From a virus, in the IMG/VR virus record IMGVR_UViG_3300025012_000035, positions 78,797-142,796 of that record: a stretch of DNA of 64,000 bases; one strand, written 5' to 3'. Every line of letters starts with the position of its first letter. Positions within the stretch are counted from its first letter, which is position 1. Shown in pieces: positions 9,878 through 18,529 of the stretch. The notes under the pieces were generated by a model, which ran no database searches, was not told the DNA's origin, and saw nothing but the letters and a program-made list of their open reading frames with translations. A program made the translations under genes and the position numbers.

Positions 9878-10534
9878 ATGATTGAAACTTGGGGAATGTT
9901 ATTTCTAATTATATTTATTAGAAATAAATTTATACAAAAATTAGAAAGGAATGGAGTGTATTTATGGAAACAATATAATATTAATCTTATCTTTAAGAAT
10001 TGGTCATTCTATCCTCCAATTATTCTTTTAGTTTTATATTTAATTCTTGAAGTAATGATGTTAAATAATATCATATGGTTTTTAGAATATTCTACAATAA
10101 TTAAACAATTAACACTCTTAAGTTTTCTAGGTTTAGTTATTGAATATAATTTATATGATTCATATTTTGAAAAATATAAAGAAAATGGATTAAAAGCATT
10201 TTTAACATCTCCATTTATATTTGCAATGATTAGTTTATGTATAGGATTGATTTTAAATTATATCGCAGTATTCAGCAATAATGGACATATGCCATTATTT
10301 ATCTCGTTTTCATATGCAACAGGATATGCTGACATTCAAGAATTAACAAAAGATACTTTTTATATATTAGGAGACCATACGAGTAAGATGATATTTTTAT
10401 GTGATACAATAGATCTATTTGGATTTTCAAATTTATCAATAGGTGATTTATTCGTAATATTATGTATGACAACAATTCTTTATTGTTCGGTAAAGCAAAC
10501 AAATATAAAAAATAATAATATTAAAAAAACTTAA
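9878..10534 (+). CDS. DUF5317-like integral membrane protein, 218 aa
   Basis: Five or so membrane helices. The diagnostic stretch is in the C-terminal third: NNGHMPLFISF, then DHTSKMIFLCDTIDLF and LSIGDLFVILCMTTILY. This follows the N(G)GkMP ... T.l.fL.D.I ... .sIGD pattern of DUF5317, a family of clostridial membrane proteins of unknown function. The ATG at 9878 is about 15 bases from GGAAGGAG, rather far; no better start is visible. It lies just upstream of the Agr-like genes. Confidence 0.55.
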   Translation: MIETWGMLFLIIFIRNKFIQKLERNGVYLWKQYNINLIFKNWSFYPPIILLVLYLILEVMMLNNIIWFLEYSTIIKQLTLLSFLGLVIEYNLYDSYFEKYKENGLKAFLTSPFIFAMISLCIGLILNYIAVFSNNGHMPLFISFSYATGYADIQELTKDTFYILGDHTSKMIFLCDTIDLFGFSNLSIGDLFVILCMTTILYCSVKQTNIKNNNIKKT

Positions 10535-10553
10535 AGAAATATAAAAATAATTG

Positions 10554-10582
10554 TTGACAACTTCTTTCCACTGTAGTATTAT
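10554..10582 (+). promoter_or_regulatory. Sigma-70-type promoter for the agr-like receptor and peptide
   Basis: TTGACA at 10554-10559, 17-base spacer, TATTAT at 10577-10582 with an overlapping TATAAT at 10580. It lies in the gap before the receptor-like gene at 10627 and would also transcribe the AgrD-like peptide gene. Confidence 0.75.
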
Positions 10583-10626
10583 AATAGTATAAATGATACC
10601 ACATGAACAAGGAGTTGAATTTATTA

Positions 10627-11508
10627 ATGAATAGTATTTGTAGAAGATTGGAAGACATTTTAGTTTCACCTTTTACATGGGGAATTACAAGTTTTTTAAT
10701 ATGGTATTGGTTAGGCTATACAGACGCAATATTAGATACAATATTTACAACTATACCAGAAACGTCTTTAAATGTTATTGCAATATTAATCTTATTAAAG
10801 AAAAGAAAATTAATTGACATGTACTTCTTAAAAGAAAGTATTAATAACGTAATGATACCTACAATCCCAACATCAATAATATGCGACACACTACAATATA
10901 TTTTCCATGTTGATCAATATTTAAATTTTATACTCACTGAATTCATATTATGTGCATTTGTAATTTATCTAATTATAAAAAATAATGTTCGTAAAGAAGA
11001 AATTAACATAGTAAAAATAATAACTTATGTTGTATTAGTGGATTTTACAATGATTTTTCTAATAGATGGATTTTACACACTAATTGTTACTCTAGTATTA
11101 AATAAAACAATGATAGAAATAAATAGCAATATATGGCTGACGATTACACTTTCTCTTATACCACGAATACTACAAATTCTTCTATTAATACTGTATTTAT
11201 ATAAGAATAGCTTCCAAGAAAAAATTAGTTATATTGATATTATTTTTAAAAATAGAGTATTGAGTTTTTCAACAATGATATTTTTTATGACAATTCTTTT
11301 TAGTGGAATTATATTTACAGGATTCTTAGCAGTAACTAATTTATTAAAACAATATGAATTATTAATGCAAATATTAACAATTGTTTTAGTTTTGATATTG
11401 CCAAGTATTTTGGTTTCATCATATATTATCTCAGTTTGCGATTTAATGAATAAGAACATTAGATTGCAAAAAGAGAAAGAAGATTTATATGGTGATGATA
11501 TTATATAA
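10627..11508 (+). CDS. AgrC-like membrane sensor domain without histidine kinase, 293 aa
   Basis: An earlier in-frame ATG exists at 10603, but AAGGAG at 10609-10614 fits the ATG at 10627. Six to eight membrane helices cover nearly the whole protein. The last one is followed by DLMNKNIRLQKEKEDLYGDD and a stop. In AgrC receptors this kind of charged helix leads from the membrane sensor into the histidine-kinase domain; here the gene simply ends. No H-box or ATP-binding motif exists. The AgrD-like peptide gene starts 18 bases later. The AgrC assignment rests on topology, the tail helix and context, so another polytopic family is possible. It might bind peptide without signalling by phosphorylation. 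Confidence 0.5.
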   Translation: MNSICRRLEDILVSPFTWGITSFLIWYWLGYTDAILDTIFTTIPETSLNVIAILILLKKRKLIDMYFLKESINNVMIPTIPTSIICDTLQYIFHVDQYLNFILTEFILCAFVIYLIIKNNVRKEEINIVKIITYVVLVDFTMIFLIDGFYTLIVTLVLNKTMIEINSNIWLTITLSLIPRILQILLLILYLYKNSFQEKISYIDIIFKNRVLSFSTMIFFMTILFSGIIFTGFLAVTNLLKQYELLMQILTIVLVLILPSILVSSYIISVCDLMNKNIRLQKEKEDLYGDDII

Positions 11509-11526
11509 AGGAGGTGGAGTTTTATT

Positions 11527-11637
11527 ATGAAAAAATATGCTTATCTTGCAACTTTGATTATTGGTACAGCTAGTGCATACTCACATTTCATTTGTTCACG
11601 TTTTTTCTTTAATCAACCTAGAACACCAAAGCAGTAG
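11527..11637 (+). CDS. AgrD-like cyclic autoinducer pre-peptide, 36 aa
   Basis: ATG after AAAGGAGG at 11508-11515. An amphipathic or hydrophobic N-terminal helix (MKKYAYLATLIIGTASAYS) precedes one cysteine, then ICSRFFFNQPRTPKQ. A single Cys followed by hydrophobic ring residues and a QP..P tail is the hallmark of clostridial AgrD: Cys forms a thiolactone with the residue four or five positions later and AgrB removes the tail. The predicted ring starts at Cys23. The AgrB gene lies 3.2 kb downstream on the same strand. Confidence 0.7.
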   Translation: MKKYAYLATLIIGTASAYSHFICSRFFFNQPRTPKQ

Positions 11638-11654
11638 TTGTAAAACTACATAGG

Positions 11655-11692
11655 TAAGGTAAGTGGAGATTTGTTTTACTCCACTTACAAAA
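11655..11692 (+). other. Perfect 10-bp stem-loop after the AgrD-like gene
   Basis: GTAAGTGGAG (11659-11668) pairs exactly with CTCCACTTAC (11679-11688) around a ten-base loop. There is no T-run, so it may stabilise the short peptide mRNA or act as a weak terminator. Confidence 0.5.
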
Positions 11693-11771
11693 TTAAAATA
11701 TAATTTTTGTTCTAAGTTATTATGAAGTAACATACATATAAAATATAATAATAAATAAGGAGTTGTTATCA

Positions 11772-12641
11772 ATGTTGTTGTTAAAAAAGAAAGAAATACC
11801 TGTAATTAGTGAAAAATTGTTGAAGGAATTGTCCTATAATACCATGAAAGCGATGGGAGATTTAAATACCACGCAATTTATTAAAGTAATGAGAATGACA
11901 GATCCAACACCAGTATTAAATATATTGAAAAAGAAAATCGTAGAATTGCCAGATAGAAATTTACTTAGAAGAATTGCGGATAATAGTAATGGTGAAGTAA
12001 GTTATAAATTACTATATAATCTGTGTGGTTACAGTGAATCTGATCCAGAAGAAGATCGTAGTTGGATGAATTTTGTTCCAAAGCGTGGTGAAATTTATAA
12101 CGTAGATTTGGGAAAATTTGGAATAGACAGTGAGCAACAGGGTAGACGGCCATTTTTGGTAGTTTCTAACAATAAAGGTAATACTTATAGTGGTATCGTG
12201 GTAGGGTTGCCGATTACAAAAATTAAAAAAGGGATGAAAAAAATACATGTTCCAATTGGTAAAGAATTTGGTTTGGAATTTGACAGTTTTGCATTATGTG
12301 AAAATATAGATTCCATAAGTAAGAGAAGATTTTTTTATAATGGTGGGATTCCATATAAAATTACTAAATTACCTGATTTCAAGATGAAAGAAATCCAAAT
12401 ATCATTAGGATTTGAACTAGGTTTCGAGGAATTATATTTTGATGAAGATAGAATATTCAAACTTATCGAACATATTCGATTGTTACAAGCTATGAATAAT
12501 AAAAAATCACCAAATTTTATTGAAATCATAAATCAAAAAATGAATGAATTAATTGAATATTGTAGTATGCATGGCAAAAATCTAAAAATGGTTATGCAAG
12601 AGTATGACAGAATTAATGGTTATGTAAGTCAGGTAGTTTAA
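11772..12641 (+). CDS. MazF/PemK-type protein with N-terminal extension, 289 aa
   Basis: ATG 11772 is nine bases after AAGGAG. Residues about 100-165 read PKRGEIYNVDLGKFGIDSEQQ, GRRPFLVVSNN and GLPITKIKKG. This is the MazF/PemK fold, with RGEIY...D, the GxRP loop with catalytic Arg, and the following strand. These are sequence-specific mRNA endonucleases. Residues about 60-90 (LLRRIADNSNGEVSYKLLYNLCGY) resemble the segment found at the end of Cro/C1-type repressor domains, so the N-terminus may be a repressor-like or antitoxin-like part. No separate antitoxin gene is seen next to it. At 289 residues it is much longer than the usual 110-120. Confidence 0.75.
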   Translation: MLLLKKKEIPVISEKLLKELSYNTMKAMGDLNTTQFIKVMRMTDPTPVLNILKKKIVELPDRNLLRRIADNSNGEVSYKLLYNLCGYSESDPEEDRSWMNFVPKRGEIYNVDLGKFGIDSEQQGRRPFLVVSNNKGNTYSGIVVGLPITKIKKGMKKIHVPIGKEFGLEFDSFALCENIDSISKRRFFYNGGIPYKITKLPDFKMKEIQISLGFELGFEELYFDEDRIFKLIEHIRLLQAMNNKKSPNFIEIINQKMNELIEYCSMHGKNLKMVMQEYDRINGYVSQVV

Positions 12642-12688
12642 TGTTTAAATTAAATATAAAAATAAAAATAAAAGGAGAAAATAATAAT

Positions 12689-12755
12689 TCATAAAAACAT
12701 TGATAAATATGTTCAAAAATGTTGCAATATACTCATATTAAAAAGAGGTGAGTAT
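12689..12755 (+). pseudogene. Short 5' gene remnant with ribosome-binding site and ATT
   Basis: AAAAGGAG is followed nine bases later by ATT at 12689, which opens a frame (IHKNIDKYVQKCC...) running into the start of the tnpA remnant. It may be the 5' part of a gene cut by the IS607-type insertion. TATACTCA and TGAGTATA around 12728-12757 form an inverted repeat near the junction. Confidence 0.3.
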
Positions 12756-12951
12756 ATGCCGAATTATAAACCACAAAATTTTGCTAAAATGTTAGGTGTA
12801 TCTGTAAAAAACACTTCAAAGATGGGACAGAGAATGTAATTTTAAATCATTTAGAATTCCAAGTAATAGAAGATATTACACAGATGAACATTTAAAAGTA
12901 TTTAATGAAAGGAGAAAGGGAATATACTCAAAGGATTTAAAACAGAATTAA
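12756..12951 (+). pseudogene. IS607-type tnpA remnant (MerR-like DNA-binding part)
   Basis: MPNYKPQNFAKMLGVSVKNT, then after a one-base frameshift TLQRWDREC...FRIPSNRRYYTDEHLKVF. This is the N-terminal helix-turn-helix of IS607-family serine transposases. The frame is shifted near 12812 and the catalytic serine-recombinase domain is missing, so the protein cannot be active. It overlaps the start of tnpB, the usual order in IS607. Confidence 0.75.
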
Positions 12952-14102
12952 GAATAACTGAAAAGCATATTTCTAAAATTCATCAATCTATTGGAATTTG
13001 TCGTTATTTATATAATACTTATTTGGCTAAAAATAAAGAATTATATGAATTATACAAAGAAGGTAAAATAGATAAAAAACAAGCATTTATGAGTGCATAT
13101 GATTTTGATAAGTATATAAATAATGAAGTAAAAATTCTTGATGAATTTAAATGGATTAATAATTGTGGTTCTAAAGCAAGAAAGAAAGCAATTATAAATG
13201 CTGAGATGGCATATAAAAGATTCTTTAAATGGCAATCTAAGTTTCCTAAATTTAAGAAAAAGAAAAATCAAGATGTAAAAATTTACTTTCCTAAAAATAA
13301 TAAAACTGATTGGACTATTGAACGTCACAGAATTAAAATACCAAGTTTAGGGTTTGTTGAATTAAAAGAAAAAGGTTATATTCCTACGAATTCAAAAGTG
13401 GTTAGTGGTACTGTTTCAATGAAAGCAGGAAGATATTATGTTTCTGTATTATGTGATATTGTAGATCGTAATAATTATTCTGATAGTAAAAATGAAGGAA
13501 TTGGTGTTGATTTAGGAATTAAAGATTTAGCGATTGTTAGTAATATTGACAAACCATTTGAAAATATTAATAAAAGTATAGTGATTAGAAAATTAAAAAA
13601 GAAACTTAATAGATTACAAAGAAAAGTATCAAGAAAATATGAAACGAACAAAGATGGTAAGAAGTTTATTAAAACTAATAATATAATTAAATTGGAATCT
13701 CAAATTAGAGTTATTCATCAAAAGATATCTAATATTCGTTTAAACTATATTCATAATATTACTAATACTCTAGTGAAATCCAAGCCAGAGTACATTACTA
13801 TTGAAGATTTAAACGTAAGGGGCATGATGAAGAATAGGCATTTATCAAAATCAATTCAAGAACAATGTTTTTATGAATTTAGAAGACAATTAACTTATAA
13901 ATGTTTATGGAATAATATTGAACTTAGAGTTGTTGATAGATTTTATCCTTCTAGTAAATTATGTTCTGAATGTGGTGGAATTAATAAAAATTTGAAACTT
14001 TCGGATAGAGAATATATTTGTGTTGAATGTGGGGTTGTAATTGATCGTGATAAAAATTCTAGTATTAATTTAAAGAATGCTAAAGAATATAAAATTGCTT
14101 AA
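12924..14102 (+). CDS. tnpB: TnpB RNA-guided nuclease of an IS607-type element, about 392 aa
   Basis: AAGGAG at 12909-12914 sits nine bases before ATA at 12924, which starts ILKGFKTELRIT, the normal TnpB N-terminus. The next usual start codon (TTG 13023) would delete it. The RuvC site looks complete: GVDLGIKDLAIV, ITIEDLNVRGMM, a CSECG...CVECG zinc finger and IDRDKNSSIN. TnpB cuts DNA guided by an RNA from the element's right end and supports transposon retention. The adjacent tnpA is dead, so mobility would need help in trans. Confidence 0.85.
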   Translation: MLKGFKTELRITEKHISKIHQSIGICRYLYNTYLAKNKELYELYKEGKIDKKQAFMSAYDFDKYINNEVKILDEFKWINNCGSKARKKAIINAEMAYKRFFKWQSKFPKFKKKKNQDVKIYFPKNNKTDWTIERHRIKIPSLGFVELKEKGYIPTNSKVVSGTVSMKAGRYYVSVLCDIVDRNNYSDSKNEGIGVDLGIKDLAIVSNIDKPFENINKSIVIRKLKKKLNRLQRKVSRKYETNKDGKKFIKTNNIIKLESQIRVIHQKISNIRLNYIHNITNTLVKSKPEYITIEDLNVRGMMKNRHLSKSIQEQCFYEFRRQLTYKCLWNNIELRVVDRFYPSSKLCSECGGINKNLKLSDREYICVECGVVIDRDKNSSINLKNAKEYKIA

Positions 14103-14240
14103 AGTAAATTATCAAATAAAAAGAAAGGTGAAATGCTACGAAGATATAATATGATAATTTACTATGTAGGGTGGGCTACATCCGAATTTACGCTTGCGGA
14201 GTGTTACATCAAATGTGAGTAGTATTAGTAATAATATAAA
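14103..14240 (+). ncRNA. Putative guide (omega) RNA region of the IS607-type tnpB
   Basis: Right after tnpB the sequence becomes more GC-rich and structured: a GTAGGGTGGGCTAC hairpin near 14166, TCCG...GCTTGCGGA near 14181-14200, and TACATC...ATGTGA. TnpB guide RNAs are transcribed from this position in other elements. Inferred from position and structure only. Confidence 0.4.
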
Positions 14241-14316
14241 AACAGACACAATGAAACAAGAATTATCTAAAATATAGAGAATGAGTACATTTGTCTATAT
14301 TTTTAGTAGCAGATGA

Positions 14317-14808
14317 TTGATTGATATGTTTAGTAAAAAAAACTTACTACAGCTAGAAAAATATCGTGATGAATATGCATTGGAATTTCAACCATTTGAA
14401 TCAACAAATACACTATTATTACAATTTAGTCAATACGAAACATGGATAATCGAATACTATGAAGAAAAACAAAGAAAATTAAATAAATTGTATAATGAAA
14501 AAACAGAAACAGAAAAAACTCTTAAATCTATACCATTGGATGAAAAAAGAGTAAGAAAAAGATTAACATCTAAAATAAATAAAATTAATGAATCAATAAA
14601 AAAATCAAGACCTTATTGTATACTTCATCAAAATAAAAAAAGAGATACTGATAAGTTTCATACACAAAGATGGGTAACGAATTTATATCATGCATTAGAT
14701 TCAATTGTCAATCATAAAGGGATTATGGTGAATCTAAATGGTTCACCAAATACATACAATAAAAATAAAATAAATAATATAGAAAGGAGAAATAATGTTA
14801 ATTGTTAA
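14317..14808 (+). CDS. Hypothetical helical protein, possibly 5'-truncated, 163 aa
   Basis: Starts at TTG 14317 or ATG 14326; neither has a ribosome-binding site, and TGA lies directly upstream in frame. Highly charged helices (YYEEKQRKLNKLYNEKTETEKTL), then RPYCILHQNKK and THTQRW-like basic residues. The missing start and the IS607 element just upstream suggest the original 5' end was lost. The 3' end overlaps agrB. No family recognised. Confidence 0.45.
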   Translation: MIDMFSKKNLLQLEKYRDEYALEFQPFESTNTLLLQFSQYETWIIEYYEEKQRKLNKLYNEKTETEKTLKSIPLDEKRVRKRLTSKINKINESIKKSRPYCILHQNKKRDTDKFHTQRWVTNLYHALDSIVNHKGIMVNLNGSPNTYNKNKINNIERRNNVNC

Positions 14809-15425
14809 TCAAGAAATATATAAACTATTTAAAGACGTTTAGATATATAAAATTAATTTCCTATATTATAGCAAACTGGTTATATAATATAATTCAGGAG
14901 TCAGATGATGAGATAGTTAAAAATATTAAAAAGTATAGAAGATATAAATATTACTTTGGAACAGAAGTAATAATAGGATATATAAATAAAGGAATACCTA
15001 TTATATTAATTGGTTTAGTATTAAATATACTTCCGCAAATGATATTAACAATATTGTCATTTGCGGTACTCAGAAATTTTTCAGGGGGATTGCATCTTGA
15101 TTCATATACAAAGTGTTGTTACTATTCATTTATAATATTTACACTAACATCCCTCTTAGCAAAATACATACCATTCAACGACATATTAAATGTAATAACT
15201 TATATAGCAACATTTATTACAATATTTATATACGCACCAGTAGAACATCCAAATCGTCCACTTACAGAAAAAGAAAAAGTAAAATTTAAATCAATATCCA
15301 TGTTTATTTTAGGTGCATTATTTGTAATTGCTCATTATGTAGACGTTACTATTAGTAATTGTATTATGTACGGCATCCTTCTAGCAGGAATAATTACCCT
15401 ACCAGTTGTAAACAAACTGAAATAA
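14802..15425 (+). CDS. agrB: AgrB-like autoinducer processing protease, 207 aa
   Basis: Five or six membrane helices. The motif NFSGGLHLDSYTKCC supplies His98 and Cys105, spaced seven apart like H77/C84 of Staphylococcus AgrB. The region after residue 16 (LISYIIANWLYNIIQE) is a typical AgrB start. AgrB is a membrane cysteine protease that trims AgrD and forms the thiolactone peptide. TTG 14802 directly follows an in-frame TAA and is 12 bases from AGGAG. An out-of-frame ATG at 14795 with ideal spacing encodes only 15 residues, so a frameshift or a coupling leader is possible. Confidence 0.88.
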   Translation: MLIKKYINYLKTFRYIKLISYIIANWLYNIIQESDDEIVKNIKKYRRYKYYFGTEVIIGYINKGIPIILIGLVLNILPQMILTILSFAVLRNFSGGLHLDSYTKCCYYSFIIFTLTSLLAKYIPFNDILNVITYIATFITIFIYAPVEHPNRPLTEKEKVKFKSISMFILGALFVIAHYVDVTISNCIMYGILLAGIITLPVVNKLK

Positions 15426-15635: not shown

Positions 15636-15648
15636 ATGATACTATAAT
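15617..15648 (+). promoter_or_regulatory. Promoter upstream of the LexA-like box
   Basis: TTGTTC at 15617-15622 with TACTAT at 15640 (17-base spacer) or TATAAT at 15643-15648 (20-base spacer). A LexA-like box begins two bases after the TATAAT. It would transcribe the gene at 15751. Confidence 0.5.
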
Positions 15649-15649
15649 A

Positions 15650-15663
15650 CGAACAGATGTTCT
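15650..15663. promoter_or_regulatory. LexA (SOS) box-like operator
   Basis: CGAACAGATGTTCT matches 13 of 14 positions of the Bacillus-type LexA/DinR consensus CGAACRNRYGTTYC. It lies immediately downstream of a -10, where a repressor would block transcription. Suggests DNA-damage induction of the genes from 15751 on. Confidence 0.6.
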
Positions 15664-15750: not shown

Positions 15751-16059
15751 ATGAATAGAATTTGTAGTGTTATTATTGATGGTGAAGGTAGATTTGTCCC
15801 TGGTTTGAATACGTTTTTTATTAGTAGTAATGAAGTATCCTATTGTACTTGCACAGGCAGATGTACTGGATTCACAACGTATGGGAATACTGAAATTTTA
15901 GAGAAGGATTTATCTGCCCTGAGGAAAATAAATACTAAGTATAACTTAGGTAAAAACTTTATTATGAAAACGATAAATAAAAATAGTATAAAAAGGGGAA
16001 AACTTTTAATTGAAAATATATCTTTATCTGTGATACATAATAAACTTGTAAATGCATAA
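15751..16059 (+). CDS. Hypothetical protein behind a LexA-like operator, 102 aa
   Basis: ATG after GAGGAGG. Cysteines in SYCTCTGRCTG may bind metal; the C-terminal half is basic (NKNSIKRGK). No family recognised. The damage-responsive operator upstream makes it a candidate for prophage induction, anti-repression or another early switch role. Confidence 0.55.
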   Translation: MNRICSVIIDGEGRFVPGLNTFFISSNEVSYCTCTGRCTGFTTYGNTEILEKDLSALRKINTKYNLGKNFIMKTINKNSIKRGKLLIENISLSVIHNKLVNA

Positions 16060-16138: not shown

Positions 16139-16167
16139 TTGACTCCTGGTTATAATTATAATATAAT
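16139..16167 (+). promoter_or_regulatory. Sigma-70-type promoter with overlapping small palindrome
   Basis: TTGACT at 16139-16144, 17-base spacer, TATAAT at 16162-16167. ATGAT-N4-ATCAT at 16126-16139 touches the -35 and could be an operator. Drives the DGQHR gene. Confidence 0.65.
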
Positions 16168-16201: not shown

Positions 16202-17527
16202 TTGTTAAAAGAAAAACAGATGCAATTGAAGGATAAGATTAATAAGGTAATTGAGGAATTTGGACATATGAGTGACATTAAAAAAAGCATTGGAAATGAA
16301 TTTTTATCTAGAAATTTACCTATTCATAGACCAATAGCCGTAATTACTACACCTAATTATCTAAATACTCTTTCTGATTCTGACGAAGATATTAGATTTT
16401 TATTTATTTTCTCTGTTGCATTAAACAATGCTTTAAAGGGAAAAGAAATAGATGTTACACTAGATGTTCAAGAGTATTTTACACAATTAGAGTATAGACA
16501 ATGGATAGGTTATAAAGAAGAAGATGAACCAGAAATAGAGTATACTGTTGTCTTTGAGAATGTCCAACAAATTAGCGAGAGAATGTGGCAAACTACTATG
16601 ACTTCTCAAAGATTTGTTGAATTGGACAAAAACAATAGATTAATTTACAATTTTTTAAACCAACGCAGTCCTGTCATTACAGTACATGGAATAAAAATGG
16701 ATATTGATAAAAAAAGTCCAATAGATATAAGTAAAAGAATGTTAGAAGGTAAACAATATCCAGATCCTATAAAATTTAATGTTTTAAGAAATTTTGAAGA
16801 AGAAGAGATAATTTATGATGCTAAAAATAGAAGGTTGACTATTAAAGGGATAATAAACTTATCAGATGGACAACACAGGAAAATTGCCACTATTCTTACG
16901 TTAGAAAAAGAACCTGAATTCATTTATACTTGGCCATTATTAATAACTCATTATACGGAAGATGAGGCAGCAGAATTTATACGTCAAATAAACTTGCAAA
17001 GAAAATTTAAAACAGAGCAAGCAAAAGGAATGGATGCAAATAAGAAAGAAAATGTTATTGTTGATTTTATTATGAATGATAAATTTAGTAGATTCAGCAA
17101 AGTTATAAAATTACAGAAAGATGAAATAATCAAACTTAAAAAAGGTGGACTAGTAACAAAAAACATAATTGCGGATACAATAATGGATAACTATAAATTA
17201 GATGAGGCAATAGATATAAAAGAACTTGGAGTATGGATAATAGATTTTATGGATTATTTAATGAGTTTGTATAAGAATGAATTCATCTTAGATCCTTATT
17301 CTATTCAAGACGTATCTGTAATAAATCATATGAATATATTTTATGGGTATATTGCATTGTCTACTGAATTACAAGGGAATTCTGATTGGAAGCAATTACT
17401 TGAAAATAAAATGAAGTCTATTGATTTTAACAAAGAGAATCCTTTGTGGAAAGAAATTGGAATATTTTCTAGTAAATTAAATAAATCTATTAAAAATAAA
17501 ATATATAAATATTTTAAGGAGGTGTAA
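16202..17527 (+). CDS. DGQHR-domain (DndB-like) protein, 441 aa
   Basis: TTG start ten bases after AAGGAG; TGA lies just upstream in frame. Residues about 223-232 read NLSDGQHRKIAT, the DGQHR signature, followed by AAEFIRQINLQRKFKTEQAK. DGQHR proteins have a ParB/sulfiredoxin-type fold. The best known member is DndB, a DNA-binding regulator of phosphorothioate modification genes; phage members are of unknown role. No other Dnd genes are in the window. Six bases before the next gene, so probably cotranscribed with it. Confidence 0.75.
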   Translation: MLKEKQMQLKDKINKVIEEFGHMSDIKKSIGNEFLSRNLPIHRPIAVITTPNYLNTLSDSDEDIRFLFIFSVALNNALKGKEIDVTLDVQEYFTQLEYRQWIGYKEEDEPEIEYTVVFENVQQISERMWQTTMTSQRFVELDKNNRLIYNFLNQRSPVITVHGIKMDIDKKSPIDISKRMLEGKQYPDPIKFNVLRNFEEEEIIYDAKNRRLTIKGIINLSDGQHRKIATILTLEKEPEFIYTWPLLITHYTEDEAAEFIRQINLQRKFKTEQAKGMDANKKENVIVDFIMNDKFSRFSKVIKLQKDEIIKLKKGGLVTKNIIADTIMDNYKLDEAIDIKELGVWIIDFMDYLMSLYKNEFILDPYSIQDVSVINHMNIFYGYIALSTELQGNSDWKQLLENKMKSIDFNKENPLWKEIGIFSSKLNKSIKNKIYKYFKEV

Positions 17528-17533
17528 TATAAA

Positions 17534-18529
17534 ATGTGCCATTTTGAATTTAAAGTTGATCCAGAACTTAAACATGATTATTTGAATGAGAAAGTTACTG
17601 CAACAGGTGAATCTGATTCATTTATTCTTCGCTCTGTGGATGAATATGAAGTAGCAAAAGGAAAACCAATTTATAATATGCATCGTAATGAATTAAATGG
17701 AATGATTGGTTTACAATTTAATAACCCTTCTGTTGGTGCTGTTACAAAAAATGTTTCTATTATTAGGACATATATTGATTTTTGTATTAATAAAAATGTT
17801 GTCACACACAGAGAAAATAGATTAGCAACATTCACAGTAAAAGATGCTAAGAATCTTGTTAACCAACAAGTATTATTGAAAAAGTTTATTACCAGAGAGC
17901 AATTAAAGGAATATCAAAGAATTCTTTATAATGAGCAAGATAAACTAATCTTAGAATTACCGTATATAGGTGCTAGAGGTAGGACATGTGATGGTTGTAC
18001 TTCCGAAGAGATTATTAACCTTAGAATGAGTGATGTAGAAGAAGAAAATAGTATGATTACCTTAACTCAGAATGATAGAAAAACTAGAGAATTAGAGGTA
18101 GAAACATCTACTATTGAATTAATTAAAGATGCATATAATCAAAAAATTTATGTTGAAAACAATGGGGAAATGAGTAATAATTTAAGGTTATCTAAACCAA
18201 GAGAGATTACTATAAATAGAGTAGAAGATTATGTTTTATGTGTCCCTAGTTTGAAAAAGTTTCAAAAGTTTACTTCTAATTTGATAACTTCTAGAATGAG
18301 TAGGATGCAGAAATACCTTGATAATCCATATTTGACAGTTTCAGGAATTTATATGTCAGGGATGGTTCAATTAGCAATAGATATTTACAAAGAAAAAGGT
18401 GAAGTAGATAAAGATGATTATATAGATATTTGTTTTAGATTTAACTATGGTGGAGATATACCTGAAAAGTATTGGCATATATTGAAAGCACAATTTGAAC
18501 AATACAAAAATCTTTTGGAGATAAAATAA
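17534..18529 (+). CDS. Degenerate tyrosine-recombinase-like protein, 331 aa
   Basis: ATG after AAGGAGG inside the end of the previous gene. The N-terminal half resembles a core-binding domain (NPSVGAVTKNVSIIRTYIDFCI). Residues about 140-185 read LILELPYIGARGRTCDGCTSEEIINLRMSDV, the area of the first catalytic Arg. The later HxxR box is not recognisable, and YGGDIPEKYWHI sits where the nucleophile Tyr would be. It may bind DNA without recombining, or be a divergent integrase. A terminator follows. Confidence 0.5.
   Translation: MCHFEFKVDPELKHDYLNEKVTATGESDSFILRSVDEYEVAKGKPIYNMHRNELNGMIGLQFNNPSVGAVTKNVSIIRTYIDFCINKNVVTHRENRLATFTVKDAKNLVNQQVLLKKFITREQLKEYQRILYNEQDKLILELPYIGARGRTCDGCTSEEIINLRMSDVEEENSMITLTQNDRKTRELEVETSTIELIKDAYNQKIYVENNGEMSNNLRLSKPREITINRVEDYVLCVPSLKKFQKFTSNLITSRMSRMQKYLDNPYLTVSGIYMSGMVQLAIDIYKEKGEVDKDDYIDICFRFNYGGDIPEKYWHILKAQFEQYKNLLEIK

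Follow-up and report, generated by a model that had tools for sequence, protein, structure and literature searches.

A 64 kb stretch (the window; positions 78797-142796) of the 142,796-base IMG/VR virus record IMGVR_UViG_3300025012_000035 carries on its + strand a cassette of agr-type genes (9878-15425), which lies upstream of homologues of the phage proteins YopQ and MrpR. This cassette is rather likely to be a module for lysis-lysogeny communication from phage to phage, which would resemble arbitrium and yet be built from agr parts. An original prediction from the sequence had described a phage-like genome with an agr-type set of peptide-signalling genes, by which a phage could produce or eavesdrop on host quorum signals. 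The genes it named all lie where it had placed them. As the cassette lies beside YopQ-MrpR, the position of arbitrium in phage phi3T, signalling between phages on lysogeny is favoured over eavesdropping on the host. YopQ and MrpR, like a TnpB element and a small protein termed P5, had not been part of that prediction. Positions given below are those of the window unless a related locus (L) is named, and all window features are on the + strand.

The YopQ homologue (16202..17527) matches phrog_5732 (E=8.8e-55) and, by BLASTP, phi3T_96 (26%, E=4e-24). The MrpR (YopR) homologue (17534..18529) matches PF22822 (E=5.7e-10), PF22823 (E=6.2e-6) and, again by BLASTP, phi3T_97 (25%, E=8e-21). In this pair of proteins the virus resembles the SPbeta-like phages. 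MrpR is the master repressor of SPbeta and maintains lysogeny (PMC10516654). In phi3T the genes aimR-aimP-aimX are found upstream of yopQ-yopR (genes 96 and 97) in the same orientation, and it is this shared position that points to a link of the cassette with lysogeny. AimR itself (NF038310) was not matched in six records tested, while control genomes including B. subtilis did give matches; what is shared with arbitrium is that genes for a peptide and a receptor precede the MrpR lysogeny module.

Relatives were located by scans with alignments of MrpR, MazF, AgrB and YopQ, followed by a hidden Markov model (HMM) survey of the loci. The survey comprised 16 viral contigs with YopQ-MrpR, the window included and L006 and L007 counted once; the contig of L046 stops before MrpR is complete, and a further contig beyond the 16, L082, is cut too near the locus for scoring. 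Receptor, AgrD, MazF fusion and AgrB were found upstream of P7, YopQ and MrpR in 14 of the 16, so that the gene-neighbourhood comparison proposed in the original prediction yielded a recurrent cassette and not a one-off. The gene order differs in L041 and L050, where AgrB stands ahead of the DUF5317 gene. The remaining two loci, L036 and L047, have YopQ-MrpR without agr and nevertheless a MazF gene, and MazF-type genes are thus close to YopQ-MrpR in all 16. A single contig from metagenome-assembled genomes (L008) contained YopQ-MrpR, without agr alongside, and AgrB as a lone query gave no match in viral contigs, phages and plasmids. The carriers form a family of large viruses, whose putative hosts are bacteria resembling clostridia. 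At 7606-8310 of L047 the MazF gene is followed, in the agr position, by a protein of 199 residues weakly similar to TPR (E=7e-4) and, behind it, by a 22-residue open reading frame (MFSEEKRLGPPTPQKPRPPKGR) with a good ribosome site; possibly the two form a further receptor-peptide pair in place of agr.

This conservation also bears on the idea that the genes are passengers, a host agr operon which the phage acquired and which has no role in phage biology. Host capture was the explanation given for the agr genes of phage phiCDHM1 (PMC3901668). Here the order and position of the genes are kept in 14 phages though the receptors are only about 22-39% identical to that of the window, and hairpin and promoters are conserved as well, which makes mere passengers very improbable.

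The receptor gene (10603..11508) encodes 301 amino acids, which alone gave no match in Pfam and contain no HATPase domain. A profile of 20 relatives, 18 from phages and two from chromosomes, was run against 398 genomes and retrieved two 446-amino acid proteins, each of which adjoins an AgrD-like peptide as well as AgrB. A Pfam search with one of them found SPOB_a and HATPase domains. With hhalign the receptor was matched to the sensor part of true AgrC with a probability of 93.4% (E=2.5e-7), compared with 0.1% for AgrB as a control. Because the profile retrieved true AgrC and the hhalign match extends over the sensor part, the assignment as a predicted AgrC-type sensor without kinase, as it had originally been read, is supported. 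The kinase and regulator components of agr were not found: GHKL kinase (PF14501) had no match in six records, and LytTR (PF04397), the mark of AgrA, none in the window's record and one sub-threshold match in a relative. An AlphaFold model of the receptor reached a predicted local distance difference test score (pLDDT) of 60 and was set aside. Four contigs contain a second receptor gene behind the MazF fusion. On chromosome G312 (L019/L023) two tandem kinase-less AgrC-type receptors are followed by an AgrD-like peptide (L023, 8351-10438); AgrB was not seen in the 14 kb read around them.

The propeptide of AgrD type (11527..11637) has no match in an HMM search, its sequence being short, and was assigned by its layout of a hydrophobic N-terminal part, a candidate ring of five residues starting from Cys or Ser and a P-x-x-P tail. 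Counterparts occur at the same place in 13 other phages, and an alignment of the 14 sequences places the predicted ring at Ser24-Phe28 (SRFFF), ahead of the tail NQPRTPKQ. The ring column is Ser in 13 peptides and Cys in one, and starts the five residues that precede the tail with its prolines: SRFFF, SAAWL, SFMWL, SAWTF, SFMGL, SHTLF, SMVVW, SWLGA, SMFFS, SWLFT, SWFWL, SYFIS, CRFWF and SAFLW. Cys23 was rejected as the ring residue, since it stands one residue before the ring column and is not conserved. Ser24 is therefore most likely the ring residue and the peptide probably a serine lactone, so that of the peptide originally described the layout with its QP..P tail holds, while the ring cysteine and the thiolactone probably do not. 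Chromosomal agrC-agrB-agrD operons in L059 and L060 likewise have an AgrD with Ser at the ring position (SWLLS and SWFLS before YQP). The peptidase AgrB (14802..15425) passed the profile search that had been proposed for it (PF04647, E=7.7e-38). Its motif GGLHLDSYTKC contains the expected His98 and Cys105, and GG-x-H-x6-C is kept in all 14 cassettes.

A receptor of this kind could also serve to interfere with the agr system of the host, the peptide blocking or mimicking host signals and the kinase-less receptor acting as a sink or decoy, which would protect the lysogen or alter host behaviour. The lack of a kinase in the receptor and of any response regulator in the searches above fits this explanation, as do the two chromosomal AgrD with Ser in the ring, and agr is common in Bacillota. 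It leaves unexplained why 14 phages keep the cassette beside YopQ-MrpR, and equally why the MazF fusion is exchanged along with receptor and peptide, and is considered unlikely.

The gene following AgrD (11772..12641, ATG start at 11772) encodes a protein of 289 amino acids with a MazF/PemK domain (PF02452, E=2.4e-19). As PF02452 covers residues 104-211 alone, MazF is one domain of a larger protein, flanked by a helical N-domain of about 95 residues and a C-terminal extension. The AlphaFold model of the fusion matches solved MazF structures in the PDB. As to the predicted catalytic residues, Arg126 is invariant in the 14 cassettes and position 149 is Thr in nine and Ser in five. Fold and residues thus place it in the MazF/PemK family, and the MazF-type RNase of the original prediction can be retained as a domain of a fusion whose RNase activity is predicted. 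Many relatives also have stand-alone MazF genes, located some 1-3 kb before the cassette (for example L026 4712-5134 and L049 3629-4078); the record of the window has none.

That the genes of the cassette belong together is best seen in two closely related loci, L044 and L045. To either side of the cassette their DNA shows 97.5-99.4% identity, and the YopQ and MrpR proteins are 100% identical, whereas in the block between these flanks protein identity is 44% for the receptor, 60% for AgrD, 59% for the MazF fusion and 65% for AgrB. Diverged cassettes inside near-identical flanks mean that the peptide, its processing enzyme, the receptor and the MazF fusion were exchanged jointly, and the cassette is swapped as one unit. 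This joint replacement is the strongest sign that its genes cooperate. Between close relatives conservation is usually lowest in the receptor, as signal specificity would lead one to expect.

A swap between near-identical phages would also suit an immunity locus, and a defence or addiction function has to be weighed here. The MazF fusion would then be a toxin restrained by the receptor or by P5, and the peptide would bring about population-dependent immunity or superinfection exclusion between peptide types. The invariant arginine of the MazF domain and the extra stand-alone MazF genes upstream of many loci are in line with such a function. No antitoxin was identified, however, and Ser in place of the MazF-site Thr in five of the 14 cassettes makes activity uncertain; overall this explanation appears improbable, to the same degree as interference with host agr.

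For the preferred function in communication between phages the following mechanism is proposed. AgrB would cut and cyclise AgrD to a peptide with a five-membered, mostly serine-lactone ring, which would be exported and bound by the phage's own AgrC-type membrane receptor. Lacking a kinase, the receptor would probably pass on the signal with its short cytoplasmic end touching another protein. The contact partner would most likely be the MazF fusion or, in one subgroup, P5; the short end of the receptor is often acidic, and the MazF fusion and P5 are basic. The MazF fusion may then act on phage or host RNA, and as an outcome the YopQ-MrpR repressor module would be pushed towards lysogeny when infected or lysogenic cells are abundant. 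The arbitrium system of phi3T acts by controlling MazF (PMC10769878). With MazF-type genes near MrpR in every surveyed viral locus, a MazF link is by analogy plausible here as well, the phage supplying the MazF. Coupling of the receptor to MazF is put forward as a working idea.

Several observations weigh against this proposal. The sequence holds no sign of a contact between receptor and MazF fusion. An XRE helix-turn-helix in the N-domain of the fusion, seen by eye and as five helices in the AlphaFold model, gained no support from Pfam, PDB or hhalign. A YopP homologue did not turn up in the interval from AgrB to YopQ, and beyond YopQ and MrpR few genes are common to the window's record and phi3T. 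No terminase was found in the window's record: the product of phi3T gene 49, which we take to be the SPbeta terminase YonF, has a homologue in three of six records tested and not in this one. Finally, exchange as one unit could fit an immunity or defence module too.

Regulatory elements accompany the cassette. A promoter-like sequence TTGACA-17-TATTAT (10554..10582) was recognized by inspection before the receptor gene, with similar ones in L009 and L026, and yopQ-mrpR has a consensus promoter TTGACT-17-TATAAT (16139..16167), which is the same or nearly so in L005, L006, L009 and L026. Inspection of five loci showed a separate promoter-like site for each of yopQ, the receptor and the MazF fusion. 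Behind agrD lie a ACTACATAG box and a hairpin of 10 bp (11646..11688), and a hairpin is kept here in all 14 cassettes; over the first 75 nucleotides the z scores lie between -2.6 and -6.9, and stretches of 75 nucleotides after mazF are mostly near zero. An intrinsic terminator was dropped as an interpretation of this hairpin, there being no U-run. At the promoter of P7, a gene for about 100 amino acids (15751..16059) with homologues in all 16 viral YopQ loci, a -10 element TATAAT is followed by a LexA-like box CGAACAGATGTTCT (15643..15663). This is the sole GAACN4GTTC in the 142.8 kb of the record; of the 16 loci, nine have the motif at the corresponding position, against 0.007 expected, and five more have near matches. 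This CGAACN4GTTC-type box marks P7 as a putative member of the LexA/DinR regulon, and the site would provide an input from the host DNA-damage response. In phi3T the only two GAACN4GTTC sites both stand before yolD, which we take to be a LexA target in B. subtilis. The inverted repeat AAGATAAAAAGAACA was tried as an operator for MrpR and was not enriched.

The first gene of the cassette encodes the DUF5317 membrane protein already recognized in the original prediction (9878..10534; PF17248, E=1.4e-11). It was found in 12 of the 14 cassettes; L005 is truncated by the contig end, and none was found in L045. P5 (14317..14808) is a small basic protein with an isoelectric point of 9.6 and homologues in L005, L006, L009, L026 and L040 and a weak one in L047. 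Between MazF fusion and P5 lies the remnant of an IS607-type element (12690..14300, boundaries approximate) with a broken TnpA (about 12756-12840), TnpB (13023-14102; NF040570, E=3.8e-76) and behind it a RAGATH-18 RNA (14193-14262; RF03064, E=7e-13). RAGATH-18-derived RNAs are known guides of IS607 TnpB (PMC11061315). Judged by gene spacing the insertion is confined to the window's cassette. Further gene content includes a tyrosine integrase, helicases, DNA and RNA ligases and ParB-like and FtsK-like proteins, and two related records contain a large serine recombinase. A protein at 19976-20578 matches the phage 'sporulation stage III protein D' (phrog_11726, E=1e-16).

Among known systems the arbitrium/sro operon of SPbeta and phi3T shares with the cassette the peptide and receptor genes upstream of yopQ-yopR (MrpR) and the link to MazF. 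It differs in that AimR is cytoplasmic and binds its peptide inside the cell, whereas the cassette has a predicted membrane receptor of AgrC type and a cyclic peptide predicted to be made by AgrB; MazF is phage-encoded here, and AimX, like AimR and YopP, was not seen. With agr (agrBDCA, and the chromosomal operons of L059 and L060) it has in common the AgrB peptidase, the AgrD layout with the QP..P tail and a homologous sensor domain, but it is without the HATPase/DHp kinase part and AgrA, and MazF fusion, DUF5317 and hairpin are added. The agr3 locus of the C. difficile phage phiCDHM1 also has agrB and agrD in a phage and no AgrA; its AgrC of 453 amino acids shows the opposite pattern to the cassette, as a HATPase domain is present and a receptor domain was not identified, and a MazF fusion is not mentioned in the accessible part of that report (PMC3901668). 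The same report notes agr with kinase-less membrane proteins in the Brevibacillus (formerly Paenibacillus) phages Davies, Emery and Abouo (PMC3901668, 2014). In Davies an agr cassette stands beside integrase and regulators, but the 27.8 kb examined had no match to the receptor family or the MazF fusion and no annotated MrpR, and its AgrB is only distantly related (E 5.5e-11).

The novelty once seen in the kinase-less receptor has therefore to be shared with candidates noted in 2014. In the literature searched, with few subscription papers and preprints, arbitrium, agr quorum sensing, phage and AgrB were not found together, nor were agr as a conserved MrpR neighbour, the MazF fusion, a Ser ring in a phage or the exchange of the cassette. 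A 2025 review mentions agr homologues in Clostridium and SPbeta-like phages in passing; its two references appear to be papers on a Borrelia phage and a Listeria AgrA inhibitor. The parts of the cassette and its likely role resemble known ones, and the signalling route may be new. Tentatively, with the chances somewhat below even, the clostridial SPbeta relatives could represent a distinct class, in which an agr-made serine lactone and a kinase-less receptor contacting a phage MazF fusion control the MrpR switch, while the peptide types are exchangeable and DNA damage enters independently. In the cassette, agr signalling that does without a kinase can be put to the test; the cassette would also tie MazF to lysogeny inside a phage genome, which bears on the action of phi3T arbitrium through MazF. 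If the proposal is true, a membrane-sensed cyclic-peptide system can replace arbitrium, and the arbitrium slot would be a general socket for peptide communication.
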